Assembly (NCBI RefSeq): GCF_000302595.1
Contig: NZ_JH947126.1
Coordinates: 587,223-651,222, forward strand
DNA: 64,000 bases
Direction of reading: 5' to 3'
Source: Pedobacter arcticus A12
GTDB lineage: Bacteria > Bacteroidota > Bacteroidia > Sphingobacteriales > Sphingobacteriaceae
Shown: in pieces, positions 27,809 to 35,897 of the stretch
How the letters are laid out: every line of letters starts with the position of its first letter
How positions within the stretch are numbered: the stretch's first letter is position 1
Made by a program: the position numbers and the translations under genes
Notes under the pieces: model-generated
The model's database searches: none
What the model saw: only the letters and a program-made list of their open reading frames with translations
What the model was told of the DNA's origin: nothing

Positions 27809-27943
27809 TCAAGTTCTTTGTTAAAACCGACCTAATATTTTGAATTTAGACATGAATCACACATTTGTTCAACAAAACAACTCGGTTGATAAACAAGAAA
27901 ATTTTAATGAGAAAACCTACTGGAAATTGGAGAGAAAAAAAAT

Positions 27944-28040
27944 GGGCTAGTCGTTTCTATCGCACCGCTACAACTTCTTACCCTTGCTGCGTTCCCACCC
28001 TGGGGGAGTTCAGAAGGAGCTGGTCGTAGATGACTAACCC
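27944..28040 (-). ncRNA. ffs: Signal recognition particle RNA, small bacterial type (4.5S)
   Basis: On the minus strand the closing stem GGGTTAGTC/GACTAGCCC encloses the universally conserved apical region: GAACTCCCCCAGGG, then GGAACGCAGCAAGGG, with the GGAA-type tetraloop and the SRP54 (Ffh) binding internal loop. Length is about 97 bases, as in other Bacteroidota. It pairs with Ffh to target membrane and exported proteins to the Sec translocon. The boundaries were set from the closing stem and could be a few bases longer. Confidence 0.92.
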
Positions 28041-28122
28041 GGCGCAAAGGTATCAATTTTTAACAGATTCTAAAAAACCAAATGTCTTTATATCTTAACC
28101 TGTTGATAATCAAAAAATAAAT

Positions 28123-32231: not shown

Positions 32232-34694
32232 TTATTCGTAAAAGTACACCCTTTTTACACGTTGCGAAATGTTGGTGACCACTTCGTAAGGAATAGTATT
32301 CAATTGCTTGGCAAGTTCGTAAACAGTTAATCCACCCCCAAAAACAACTGCTTCATCTCCTTCGCTTACATCAATGCCTGTAATATCCAGCATGGTCATA
32401 TCCATACATATGTTTCCGATGGTTGGAACCAACTGATTATTCACCAACATAGTACCTTTTCCATTACCCAAAGCTCTGGGGTAACCATCGGCATAACCGA
32501 TTTTCACCGTTGCTGTTTTACCATCATGAGCCATTATACCACTCCTTCCGTAGCCAACCGTTTCTCCTTTTTTCAAAGTTTTAATTTGCGATATTGTAGT
32601 TTTCAAACTCGCTACGTTCGTCAACAATGGTTTTTCTTCCTCCACACTTTCAATTCCGTAAAGGCCAATACCTAACCTTACCATATCAAACTGCGCTTCT
32701 GGCCATTTACTAATACCCGATGTATTCGAAATATGGCGCAAAAAAGTATAGGAAAGGCAATCTTCCAAAATCTTCGTCATCGCTTCAAAATCAGCAATCT
32801 GCTGTAGCGTAAAATCACGATGTAGATCACTGTCGCTAGCAACCAAATGCGAGAAAACAGACTTTACTTTTAAAACGGCTTGTGCATTAAGCATAGTCGC
32901 CAGTTCATTGACCGTTTCCTTTTCAAATCCCAACCGGTGCATCCCAGTATCTAATTTGATGTGTACAGGGTAGTTATTTACTTTTTTATCACTTAAAAAA
33001 GTAGCAAAAGCCTGCAAAACTCTCAGCGAATATAATTCAGGCTCTAAATTGTAATCAAAAATTGCTTCGAAGGAGGAAACCTCAGGGCTCAACACCATTA
33101 TTGGAATATTTATACCTGCCTGCCTCAAAGCAACTCCTTCATCAGCGTAAGCTACGGCCAAATAATCTACACGGTGATGCTGCAATAAGTTGGCAATCTC
33201 ATCGCTCCCACTTCCATAAGCAAAAGCCTTAACCATTGCCATCAATTTTACACCAGGTTTCAGCTTCGCCTTATAGTGTTTTAGGTTATGGACTATAGCG
33301 TTTAAATTAATCTCCAAAACCGTGTCATGCACTTTTTGTGTTAACATTTTACTAATTCTTTCGAACTCAAAATCCCGAGCACCTTTTAGTAATATGGTTT
33401 CATTTTTAAAATCCTCACTATTAAACTGCGCTATAAACTCGTGTGTACTGTTGTAAAACAAGCTCCCCGCTGGAAATAGATTGCCATACAAACTAAGCTC
33501 TGGGCCAATACCTATAAACCTGTTTACACCTTTATTTTCGAGAAGATTTGCAACATCTTGATAAAGTTCTTTAGCAGATTTACCAGACTGATAAATATCT
33601 GACAGGATAAGTGTTTTTTTGGGATGCTGGTTCTGCTGGTTCAGAAAATCTATTGCAATATCTAAAGAAGAAAAATCGGAATTATAAGAATCATCAATCA
33701 CGGCTGACTGATTAATCCCATTTTTAAGTTCTAAACGCATTTTAACAGGTAAAAGTTTTTCCATTCTCTTGGCAATAACTTCCTGTTCTATCCCTAAATA
33801 AAGCAAGGTAGCCCAGCATATTATCGCATTCTCTACGGACACTTGGTTGCTAAATGGAATTATAATTTCAATATTATTTTGTTGATAGATGGCAGAAATG
33901 GTTGCTTTGGCGCCATCACGTATAATTTCATTAACCTTTAAATCTGCATCTTGTGCTATACTCCAAGTAAATACTATTTTATCTTTTGGAAGCGTTAATA
34001 CGTATTGGCTATTGCTAATTACAACTTTTGCATGGTCGAAAAGAGATAGCTTTTCCTGCAATTTCTGCGTTCTACTTTCAAAACCTTCATCATGTGCTGT
34101 AGCTATATTGGTCAAAATCCCGATATCGGGCCTAATTACCCGCTCCAAATTTTTCATTTCGTCAACAACAGAAATACCTGCTTCAAAAATTCCCAAATTA
34201 TAATCATCGCTCATGTGCCAAACCGACAGTGGTACGCCAATCTGCGAGTTATAGCTTTTAGGACTTCTTACAATATCATAATCTGGAGCCAAAAGCTGAT
34301 AAAGCCATTCTTTAACAATTGTTTTTCCGTTACTTCCTGTAATACCTATAACAGGATAGTCGAATTTTTCTCGGTGCACCGCAACAATTTGCTGCATTGC
34401 GGCGGTAGCATCTTTTACCCAAATAAAATTAGCGTTGGTATAGGTCTCGGTATTAAAATCTAGATCGGTTAAAATAAAACTATTTACACCTAGTTTATAA
34501 AGGGCATTAATATATTGATGTGCGTCTTTTGTGCCTTTTAATGTAAAAAAAACAGAGTTCCTTGCGTCGGTTATTTTCCTACTATCGGTTAGCAAGTGTT
34601 GAATAATTTGCTGCGGATTGTTAAGTAAGGACTTAAAACCCACTATTTCTGATAGTTCTTTGGCTGTAAAAGAAAACTGCGACATATTTCGCAA
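32232..34694 (-). CDS. murF-alr: Bifunctional MurF ligase / alanine racemase
   Basis: 820 residues (817 from the Met at 34685, MSQFSF, probably the real start). The N-terminal half (about 1-450) is UDP-MurNAc-tripeptide:D-Ala-D-Ala ligase, with GITGSNGKTIVKEWL as the ATP-binding loop and the DIGILTNIATAHDEGF segment. The C-terminal half (about 460-820) is alanine racemase, with LMAMVKAFAYGSGSDE carrying the PLP Lys and KIGYADGYPR the catalytic Tyr. The fusion makes D-Ala and adds D-Ala-D-Ala to the peptidoglycan precursor in one polypeptide. It is common in Bacteroidota. It is divergent from recX, with only about 40 bases between the start codons. Confidence 0.93.
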   Translation of the reverse strand: MRNMSQFSFTAKELSEIVGFKSLLNNPQQIIQHLLTDSRKITDARNSVFFTLKGTKDAHQYINALYKLGVNSFILTDLDFNTETYTNANFIWVKDATAAMQQIVAVHREKFDYPVIGITGSNGKTIVKEWLYQLLAPDYDIVRSPKSYNSQIGVPLSVWHMSDDYNLGIFEAGISVVDEMKNLERVIRPDIGILTNIATAHDEGFESRTQKLQEKLSLFDHAKVVISNSQYVLTLPKDKIVFTWSIAQDADLKVNEIIRDGAKATISAIYQQNNIEIIIPFSNQVSVENAIICWATLLYLGIEQEVIAKRMEKLLPVKMRLELKNGINQSAVIDDSYNSDFSSLDIAIDFLNQQNQHPKKTLILSDIYQSGKSAKELYQDVANLLENKGVNRFIGIGPELSLYGNLFPAGSLFYNSTHEFIAQFNSEDFKNETILLKGARDFEFERISKMLTQKVHDTVLEINLNAIVHNLKHYKAKLKPGVKLMAMVKAFAYGSGSDEIANLLQHHRVDYLAVAYADEGVALRQAGINIPIMVLSPEVSSFEAIFDYNLEPELYSLRVLQAFATFLSDKKVNNYPVHIKLDTGMHRLGFEKETVNELATMLNAQAVLKVKSVFSHLVASDSDLHRDFTLQQIADFEAMTKILEDCLSYTFLRHISNTSGISKWPEAQFDMVRLGIGLYGIESVEEEKPLLTNVASLKTTISQIKTLKKGETVGYGRSGIMAHDGKTATVKIGYADGYPRALGNGKGTMLVNNQLVPTIGNICMDMTMLDITGIDVSEGDEAVVFGGGLTVYELAKQLNTIPYEVVTNISQRVKRVYFYE

Positions 34695-35243: not shown

Positions 35244-35273
35244 TTGCAAAGAATATTTTTCTGTCTATATTTG
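35244..35273 (+). promoter_or_regulatory. Promoter of the tRNA cluster
   Basis: The -33 TTG (35244) and -7 TATATTTG (35266-35273) are separated by 19 bases, matching the Bacteroidota consensus. It lies 34 bases before the tRNA-Gly. Confidence 0.65.
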
Positions 35274-35307
35274 CAACCCGCAAGGGAAACAAAGTTCTTT
35301 AAAATAT

Positions 35308-35380
35308 GCGAAAGTAGCTCAGTTGGTAGAGCACAACCTTGCCAAGGTTGGGGTCGCGAGTTCGAATCTCGTCTTTCGCT
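35308..35380 (+). tRNA. tRNA-Gly (GCC)
   Basis: Acceptor stem GCGAAAG/CTTTCGC, D-stem GCTC/GAGC, anticodon stem with loop TTGCCAA (anticodon GCC), T arm GCGAG-TTCGAAT-CTCGT, and discriminator T. All arms pair normally. An 18-base perfect palindrome (AGAAACTTTAAAGTTTCT) lies just after it, before the tRNA-Leu. Confidence 0.95.
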
Positions 35381-35417: not shown

Positions 35418-35502
35418 GCTCAGATGGTGGAACTGGTAGACACGCAGGACTTAAAATCCTGTTCCCGTTAAGGGAGTGCGGGTTCGATTCCCGCTCTGAG
35501 TA
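35418..35502 (+). tRNA. tRNA-Leu (TAA)
   Basis: 85 bases with a long variable arm (TTCCCGTTAAGGGAG), as for a class II tRNA. The anticodon loop CTTAAAA gives anticodon TAA. The T arm is GCGGG-TTCGATT-CCCGC and the acceptor is GCTCAGA/TCTGAGT with one G-U pair at the end. Confidence 0.93.
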
Positions 35503-35504
35503 CA

Positions 35505-35535
35505 AACCTCTCACATGCCCGTGAGAGGTTTTTTA
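35505..35535 (+). terminator. Terminator of the tRNA cluster
   Basis: A ten-base-pair stem AACCTCTCAC/GTGAGAGGTT with a 6-base loop and a following T-run. It begins two bases after the tRNA-Leu. Confidence 0.85.
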
Positions 35536-35545
35536 TTTTAACGAA

Positions 35546-35785
35546 ATGCAGTTTTTTGCCTATATATTGCAATCGGAAAAGTCAGGCAGGTTCTATATCG
35601 GACACACGCAAGATTTGATCGAAAGGTTAAAGAGACATAATTCGGGTATGGTTAAAGCAACAAAGAATAATTGACCTTGGTGATTAGTTTATTCTGAAGT
35701 TTTTGAAAATAAGTTAAAAGCAAATCAAAGAGAGCTGGATATTAAATCTAAGAAAAGCAGGATTTATATAGAAAGACTTCTTTAA
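35546..35785 (+). pseudogene. GIY-YIG endonuclease pseudogene (two in-frame TGA stops)
   Basis: 80 codons in one unbroken reading frame read MQFFAYILQSEKSGRFYIGH, the UvrC-type GIY-YIG fold start. After the KATKNN segment a TGA appears, then PW, another TGA, and LVYSEVFENKL with an intact C-terminus (KSKKSRIYIERLL). Intact homologues have residues such as Arg or Gly before PW and a charged residue after it, so both stops could be point mutations (for example CGA to TGA). There is no frameshift. The gene lies between two tRNA-Gly copies. Loss looks recent, because the rest of the sequence is well preserved. Confidence 0.8.
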
Positions 35786-35824
35786 AAATATAATTAGCAA
35801 AATTTATTCTGCTAATTTTCATAA

Positions 35825-35897
35825 GCGAAAGTAGCTCAGTTGGTAGACCCCAACCTTGCCAAGGTTGGGGTCGCGAGTTCGAATCTCGTCTTTCGCT
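35825..35897 (+). pseudogene. Altered tRNA-Gly copy (probable tRNA pseudogene)
   Basis: It is identical to tRNA-Gly 35308-35380 except in the D-stem/anticodon junction, where GAGCACAACC has become GACCCCAACC. The changes break one D-stem pair (C11-G24 becomes C-C). They turn the anticodon arm into a perfect 8-bp extended palindrome, CCCCAACC-TTGCCAA-GGTTGGGG. The anticodon GCC, T arm and acceptor are intact. No good promoter lies directly upstream. It may be transcribed from the first cluster, but the terminator at 35505 would interfere. Confidence 0.75.

Follow-up and report, generated by a model that had tools for sequence, protein, structure and literature searches.

A tRNA-Gly(GCC) duplicate of Pedobacter arcticus A12 with an anticodon arm probably rewritten into a perfect hairpin by one templated event

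Organization of the tRNA locus

The window, i.e. the whole stretch of 64,000 nucleotides of Pedobacter arcticus A12 that was analysed, contains a tRNA locus with two tRNA-Gly(GCC) genes, one tRNA-Leu(TAA) gene and a small GIY-YIG endonuclease pseudogene, all on the forward strand. The first tRNA-Gly gene (copy 1; 35308..35380; ARAGORN and Rfam) is intact, identical to copies in congeners and represents the ancestral form. It is preceded by a Bacteroidota-type promoter (35244..35273, forward strand; recognised by motif and sequence), in which a TTG at 35244 lies 22 nt upstream of TATATTTG (35266-35273), and by a putative boxA-like leader, GTTCTTTAA (35294-35302, same strand). The tRNA-Leu gene (35418..35502; ARAGORN and Rfam) is also intact and is followed on the same strand by an intrinsic terminator of 11 pairs and a T run (35504..35531).

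The GIY-YIG pseudogene (35546..35785; Pfam PF01541, 53.9 bits) carries two in-frame TGA codons (35672-35674 and 35681-35683). The second tRNA-Gly gene (copy 2; 35825..35897; ARAGORN and Rfam) begins 39 bp past its end, and an AT-rich inverted repeat, AATTAGCA...TGCTAATT (35792..35817, forward strand), lies in between. Relative to the start of the pseudogene, tRNA-Leu starts at -128 and copy 2 at +279, a spacing that recurs in the other loci described below.

The open reading frames between 32 and 40 kb of the window are, by eye, of the MurF-Alr, RecX, DEAD-box helicase, glycosyltransferase and RecQ types; the first is an 820-aa frame resembling a fusion of MurF and alanine racemase (32232-34694, reverse strand). 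A Bacteroidales small SRP RNA (RF04183, 96.1 bits) is located at 27940-28047 on the reverse strand. Duplication of an integrase attachment site was considered as a source of copy 2 and rejected, as no integrase gene was recognised beside it.

The two tRNA-Gly copies

Copies 1 and 2, both located where the first-pass annotation had placed them, differ in two of 73 bases and are identical in the other 71. Position 24 of the tRNA is G in copy 1 (35331) and C in copy 2 (35848), position 26 is A in copy 1 (35333) and C in copy 2 (35850), and both changes are transversions. The first-pass annotation of this DNA had confined the differences to the junction of the D stem and the anticodon arm, and this was borne out, positions 24 and 26 alone being affected.

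Positions 22-48 of copy 2 (35846..35872, forward strand) form a perfect hairpin, GACCCCAACCTT-GCC-AAGGTTGGGGTC, with 12 consecutive Watson-Crick pairs (positions 22-33 with 37-48, paired throughout from 22-48 to 33-37) around the loop GCC. Ten of the 12 pairs are present in copy 1, which lacks only 24:46 and 26:44, and ten also in the tRNA-Gly(GCC) copies of congeners. In copy 2 both mismatches have become pairs with nothing else altered, so that the 5' arm is made complementary to the 3' arm just as the annotation had read it, and the repeat continues for two more matched pairs beyond the outer correction. Its description of an imperfect palindrome in copy 1 and a perfect one in copy 2 likewise stands; the arms it gave as 8 bp proved to be 12 bp long.

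Predicted fold and expression of copy 2

Under the Rfam tRNA model copy 1 scores 71.4 bits and copy 2 57.2 bits, i.e. about 14 bits less, in the comparison of covariance scores that had been proposed at the outset; ARAGORN and Rfam still call copy 2 a tRNA. A cloverleaf is predicted for copy 1 (MFE -26.0 kcal/mol, D-stem pairing 0.95), and the 12-bp hairpin for copy 2 (-34.6 kcal/mol), with a D-stem pairing probability of 0 and the acceptor and T stems retained. The cloverleaf D stem is absent from copy 2, which has a C11-C24 mismatch, in agreement with the earlier statement that a D-stem pair is broken and the T arm and acceptor are intact. In an RNA from copy 2 the hairpin would take the place of the D stem and the 5-bp anticodon stem, which makes it very probable that copy 2 is no working tRNA.

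No exact TAnnTTTG, as part of a promoter of the TAnnTTTG plus TTG type, was found for copy 2 in the 320 nt that separate it from tRNA-Leu; a site with one mismatch, 5 nt 5' of copy 2, is without a TTG. The terminator, a strong one, separates tRNA-Leu from copy 2. On these sequence features copy 2 is probably untranscribed, and it is probably dead as a tRNA because the D stem is lost, the model score has dropped, no promoter was found and a terminator lies upstream.

Comparison with related genomes

A search of the genus covered 18 genomes, including that of the window, with matches in all 18. The tRNA-Gly(GCC) genes in the congener loci that were fetched read GAGCACAACC or GAGCGCAACC at the changed place, never the form of copy 2, and the arrays at the locus are Gly-Leu, Gly-Leu-Gly or Gly-Leu-Gly-Leu. 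In one congener (G005) the genes stand in the order found in the window, Gly-Leu-Gly-DEAD helicase-small ORF-glycosyltransferase-RecQ; the second Gly gene there, at the site of copy 2, has kept the ancestral bases. The comparison of related tRNA-Gly(GCC) genes at this locus, also proposed in the first-pass annotation, gave ancestral bases in every congener gene inspected.

Two findings had been named in advance as contradicting a single templated change: sister genomes with stepwise intermediates, and a tRNA gene that already carried the bases of copy 2. One-base intermediates (24C without 26C, or 26C with 24G) are absent from the 401 genomes of the family that were searched, in which the only match to the 26C form is copy 2 itself. 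Gene conversion from another tRNA was rejected, since no donor was found in the genome of strain A12 (in which the copy 2 product occurs once), in the 401 family genomes or, by search with an exact 30-mer of copy 2, in any other genome among 84,980 species, a set to which strain A12 itself possibly does not belong. Viral contigs also held no donor with these bases.

Hairpin-armed tRNA copies at the same locus and elsewhere

In three congeners (G002, G016 and G017), the tRNA-Leu of this locus is followed by an intact homologue of the GIY-YIG gene. Degenerate tRNA copies at the locus were searched by blastn with tRNA probes, i.e. they were not chosen for a hairpin, and five were found, in G002, G014, G016 and G017 (two). 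In all five, the 5' part of the tRNA is followed by a TCCCGA(T)...(A)TCGGGA hairpin in place of the anticodon arm, and the T arm has also been replaced in G016, G017 and G002. The tRNA remnants at the tRNA-Gly/Leu locus of G016, G017, G002 and G014 (L044, L045, L046 and L037) have the T arm (CCCCGAT...ATCGGGG) or the D loop (TTAGCTCA-TCCCGATAGCTATCGGGA-GGTAGAGC) swapped for hairpins. Copy 2 keeps its own CAACC/GGTTG stem in extended form, with no TCCCG(A)/(T)CGGGA replacement, and was therefore not filed as a hairpin-armed member of such a GIY-YIG unit, though it occupies that slot. As a donor for copy 2 the TCCCGAT hairpin was rejected: its sequence does not match, and none lies in the window.

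The pattern of a D arm followed by a TCCCG hairpin was found in 13 of 151 family genomes, with 18 matches as compared to 4 for a reversed control, some of the 18 being plainly not derived from tRNA. A scan of 84,980 genomes, in which the search required one stem sequence, TCCCG/CGGGA, gave at least 117 stretches, mostly from Bacteroidota, about one third of the listed ones being chance-like or unassignable; other groups among them include Ignavibacteria, Kiritimatiellae, Parcubacteria/Magasanikbacteria, SR1 and Marinimicrobia. Among the matches listed, 55 hairpin-armed copies have an intact tRNA close downstream (Leu, Lys, Gly, Thr, Ala, Pro, Val or Asn), which their 5' part matches at 0.78-1.0, mostly 1.0. 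The stem of all 55 is TCCCG/CGGGA, as the search dictated. The loops of these 55 copies share with the anticodon loop of the parent a longest common word of 3.33 on average, as compared to a mean of 2.48 (sd 0.12) in shuffled pairs, and none of 2000 shufflings reached the observed likeness. The replaced arms mostly start at position 27, adjoining the changed bases of copy 2.

The TCCCG/CGGGA copies (L111-L227, L074-L079, L099-L110) mostly precede an intact tRNA of their own kind by 50-100 nt and are often in tandem (L131, L189, L212, L221); three tandem units of a hairpin copy with tRNA-Lys are located at a contig end with N in the assembly (L106/L110, G021:C4). ARAGORN accepts some of these copies as tRNAs (L193, L131 and L235, as Asn-ATT, a second Lys and 'tRNA-Stop(tta)'), so that the tRNA gene numbers and anticodons given by automatic annotation may be false.

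The TCCCGAT hairpin is also dispersed in genomes, often with GGTAGA before it, and hairpins of this type close arms of the RNase P RNA of several congeners. In rnpB of 18 congeners (L080-L097), CCCGAT...ATCGGG is present at the P3 region in G001, G003, G007, G014 and G017; G004 comes close to it, in G009 a different arm is affected and G005 has a related CGATAGCTATCG, whereas the other congeners have unrelated stems at those places.

Association with GIY-YIG genes

A small GIY-YIG gene lies within 500 bp of 36 of the at least 117 listed stretches, and the number is still 36 at a limit of 2.5 kb. Among the matches listed, 27 of the 76 loci with a clear tRNA copy have such a gene within 500 bp, on the same strand in all 27. 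The spacing is stereotyped: a tRNA or tRNA copy is located about 100-190 bp before the start of the GIY-YIG gene, and/or the following one some 220-290 bp past that start. The order Gly-Leu-GIY-hairpin-armed copy, which is that of the window, recurs at four loci (L153, L171, L172 and L220).

In one genome assembled as a single contig (G001), seven identical tandem units of 358 bp are located near two intact tRNA-Val genes (L233; G001:C1:2471500-2477800). Each comprises a TCCCGATATATAATCGGGA hairpin, the 3' half of tRNA-Val, a terminator and a GIY-YIG gene with a reading frame that extends into the D arm; shorter units of 132 bp, without the GIY-YIG gene, are also present. Units in G002 are about 345 bp long, and two hairpins in G008 are 375 bp apart.

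Taken together, the tRNA-GIY units look like an undescribed parasitic or self-amplifying element. Tentatively, an approximately 80-aa GIY-YIG gene with its TCCCG/CGGGA tRNA copy might form a widespread parasitic unit that resides in the tRNA clusters of Bacteroidota and other phyla, multiplies in tandem and encodes a nuclease acting on the hairpins of tRNA genes, with copy 2 as a scar of that action that outlasted the local nuclease gene. The recurrence of hairpin-armed tRNA copies next to GIY-YIG genes means that copy 2 may be no isolated accident. If the units are mobile, they would be a common cause of tRNA gene duplication and inactivation, one undescribed in the literature searched; these nuclease-loaded tRNA clusters would be a larger result than the mutation in copy 2. 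In a literature search that took in few subscription papers and no preprints, the string CCCGATAGCTATCGGG was found in no paper, and a search for GIY-YIG genes with tRNA genes in Bacteroidetes gave one unrelated phage paper only.

Origin of the perfect hairpin

By far the best explanation of copy 2 is that a redundant duplicate of tRNA-Gly(GCC) had its D-stem/anticodon junction rewritten in one hairpin-templated event, to which we assign a probability of about three in four. Quasi-palindrome correction had been proposed from the first, and it is strongly supported by the polarity of the changes, by the ancestral second copy in G005 and by the absence of intermediates from the 401 family genomes. 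As suggested by the geometry, a 3' end of the bottom strand within positions 27-38 would have folded back on the anticodon arm, used the opposite arm (tRNA positions 44-48) as template for at least 3 bases and then gone back to the regular one. On the top strand the 5' arm would thereby be rewritten to match the 3' arm, with C at positions 24 and 26 and a quasi-palindrome raised from 10/12 to 12/12. That the event was single, that it involved this strand and that copy 2 is dead are inferred. A stalled fork could have supplied the 3' end, or else a nick made by the adjacent GIY-YIG nuclease before its gene decayed, and a nick with self-templated repair would give the same product as a switch during replication.

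A specific form of the nuclease route is possible, if doubtful: the GIY-YIG enzyme nicked copy 2 near positions 26/27, and self-templated repair gave the perfect hairpin, which would make copy 2 the local form of the hairpin-armed copies. This is a special case that overlaps the best explanation. The recurrent spacing and order of tRNA-Leu, pseudogene and copy 2, the usual start of replaced arms at position 27 and the same-strand GIY-YIG genes near other copies are in line with it; against it, copy 2 extends its own anticodon stem instead of carrying the TCCCG/CGGGA of the element, the extra tRNA-Gly in G005 exists without a GIY-YIG gene, and a template switch at a fork requires no nuclease.

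Two independent substitutions in a dead gene, completing the palindrome by luck, are improbable. Dead genes gather changes, and the adjacent GIY-YIG gene has decayed; however, a full enumeration of the double substitutions of copy 1 gave a perfect stem of more than 9 bp in 4 of 23,652 cases (1.7e-4), each with a 12-bp stem and a loop of 3-8 and none with a stem of 10 or 11 bp. Both changes are moreover transversions in a gene otherwise unchanged at 71 bases, and neither one-base state was seen in the family.

Retention of the hairpin for a function, as a tRNA-like hairpin RNA, a DNA signal or a non-cleavable decoy, is slightly less probable still. Hairpin-armed copies recur in many phyla with a 5' half near-identical to the adjoining intact tRNA, and those copies are for this reason not plain debris; copy 2, in contrast, has no promoter, a form unique to its own genome and a broken GIY-YIG gene beside it. 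Of the two fates that the first-pass annotation had offered, a dead gene or a hairpin put to other use, the former is thus the likelier and the latter is disfavoured.

An artefact, i.e. fold-back copying in library preparation or a consensus error at the hairpin, is the least probable origin: hairpins are easily miscopied in vitro and there is a single assembly, but this assembly, of 16 contigs, is 100% complete, and the false bases would need to prevail among the reads of just one gene of a near-identical pair, each with unique flanks.

Comparison with known systems

In Escherichia coli, quasipalindrome mutation arises when the polymerase uses the nascent strand as template, and the repeat is made more perfect (PMC7202029). 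Such events are known from the thyA and lacZ reporters of E. coli, rIIB of phage T4 and CYC1 of yeast, and copy 2 resembles them in the probably concerted change of an imperfect into a perfect inverted repeat templated by the other arm (PMC7202029). It differs from the reporters in being natural, fixed in a tRNA duplicate and seen by comparison. As a natural example of arm-to-arm copying in a bacterial tRNA gene, copy 2 is unusually clean, with built-in controls in the ancestral copy 500 bp away and in the G005 copy at the same place.

It has been suggested that RNA stems arise and persist through template switching (PMC8794818), and there, too, RNA genes gain or perfect stems via the opposite strand of the stem; those are rRNA and microRNA genes, whereas the new stem of copy 2 destroys the RNA fold. 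Template switching has also been seen in the supF suppressor tRNA reporter (PMC9584611), likewise as a cluster mutation driven by a quasi-palindrome in a tRNA gene; that case is a loop inversion at the 5' end of a laboratory reporter gene, and copy 2 a correction in the anticodon arm.

The scattered TCCCGAT hairpins recall REP and REPIN sequences, which are short palindromes of GTAG- and CGTC-tagged repeats (PMC3733652) dispersed in genomes; the enzyme associated with the bacterial units is a GIY-YIG protein. A REP/REPIN origin was rejected: units of the Val type have GGTTCAGAGCA before the hairpin and no GTAG tag, and GGTAGA in copy 2 is plain tRNA sequence.

For the GIY-YIG units the closest comparison is SegB, a free-standing GIY-YIG homing endonuclease of T-even phages; tRNA genes and segB are reported to be amplified together through double-strand breaks and recombination, with microhomology between the 5' end of the tRNA and the 3' end of the nuclease gene (PMC13096335). 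Common to both are a GIY-YIG gene inside a tRNA cluster and, apparently, the tandem amplification of a tRNA-nuclease unit. SegB is a phage and not a chromosomal system, and hairpin-swapped tRNA copies are not known from it; the bacterial units combine GIY-YIG genes of about 80 aa with a common TCCCG/CGGGA anticodon stem. The resemblance is one of working, not of membership. If the units are mobile, they would be the counterpart, on bacterial chromosomes, of the amplification of tRNA genes by SegB in phages.
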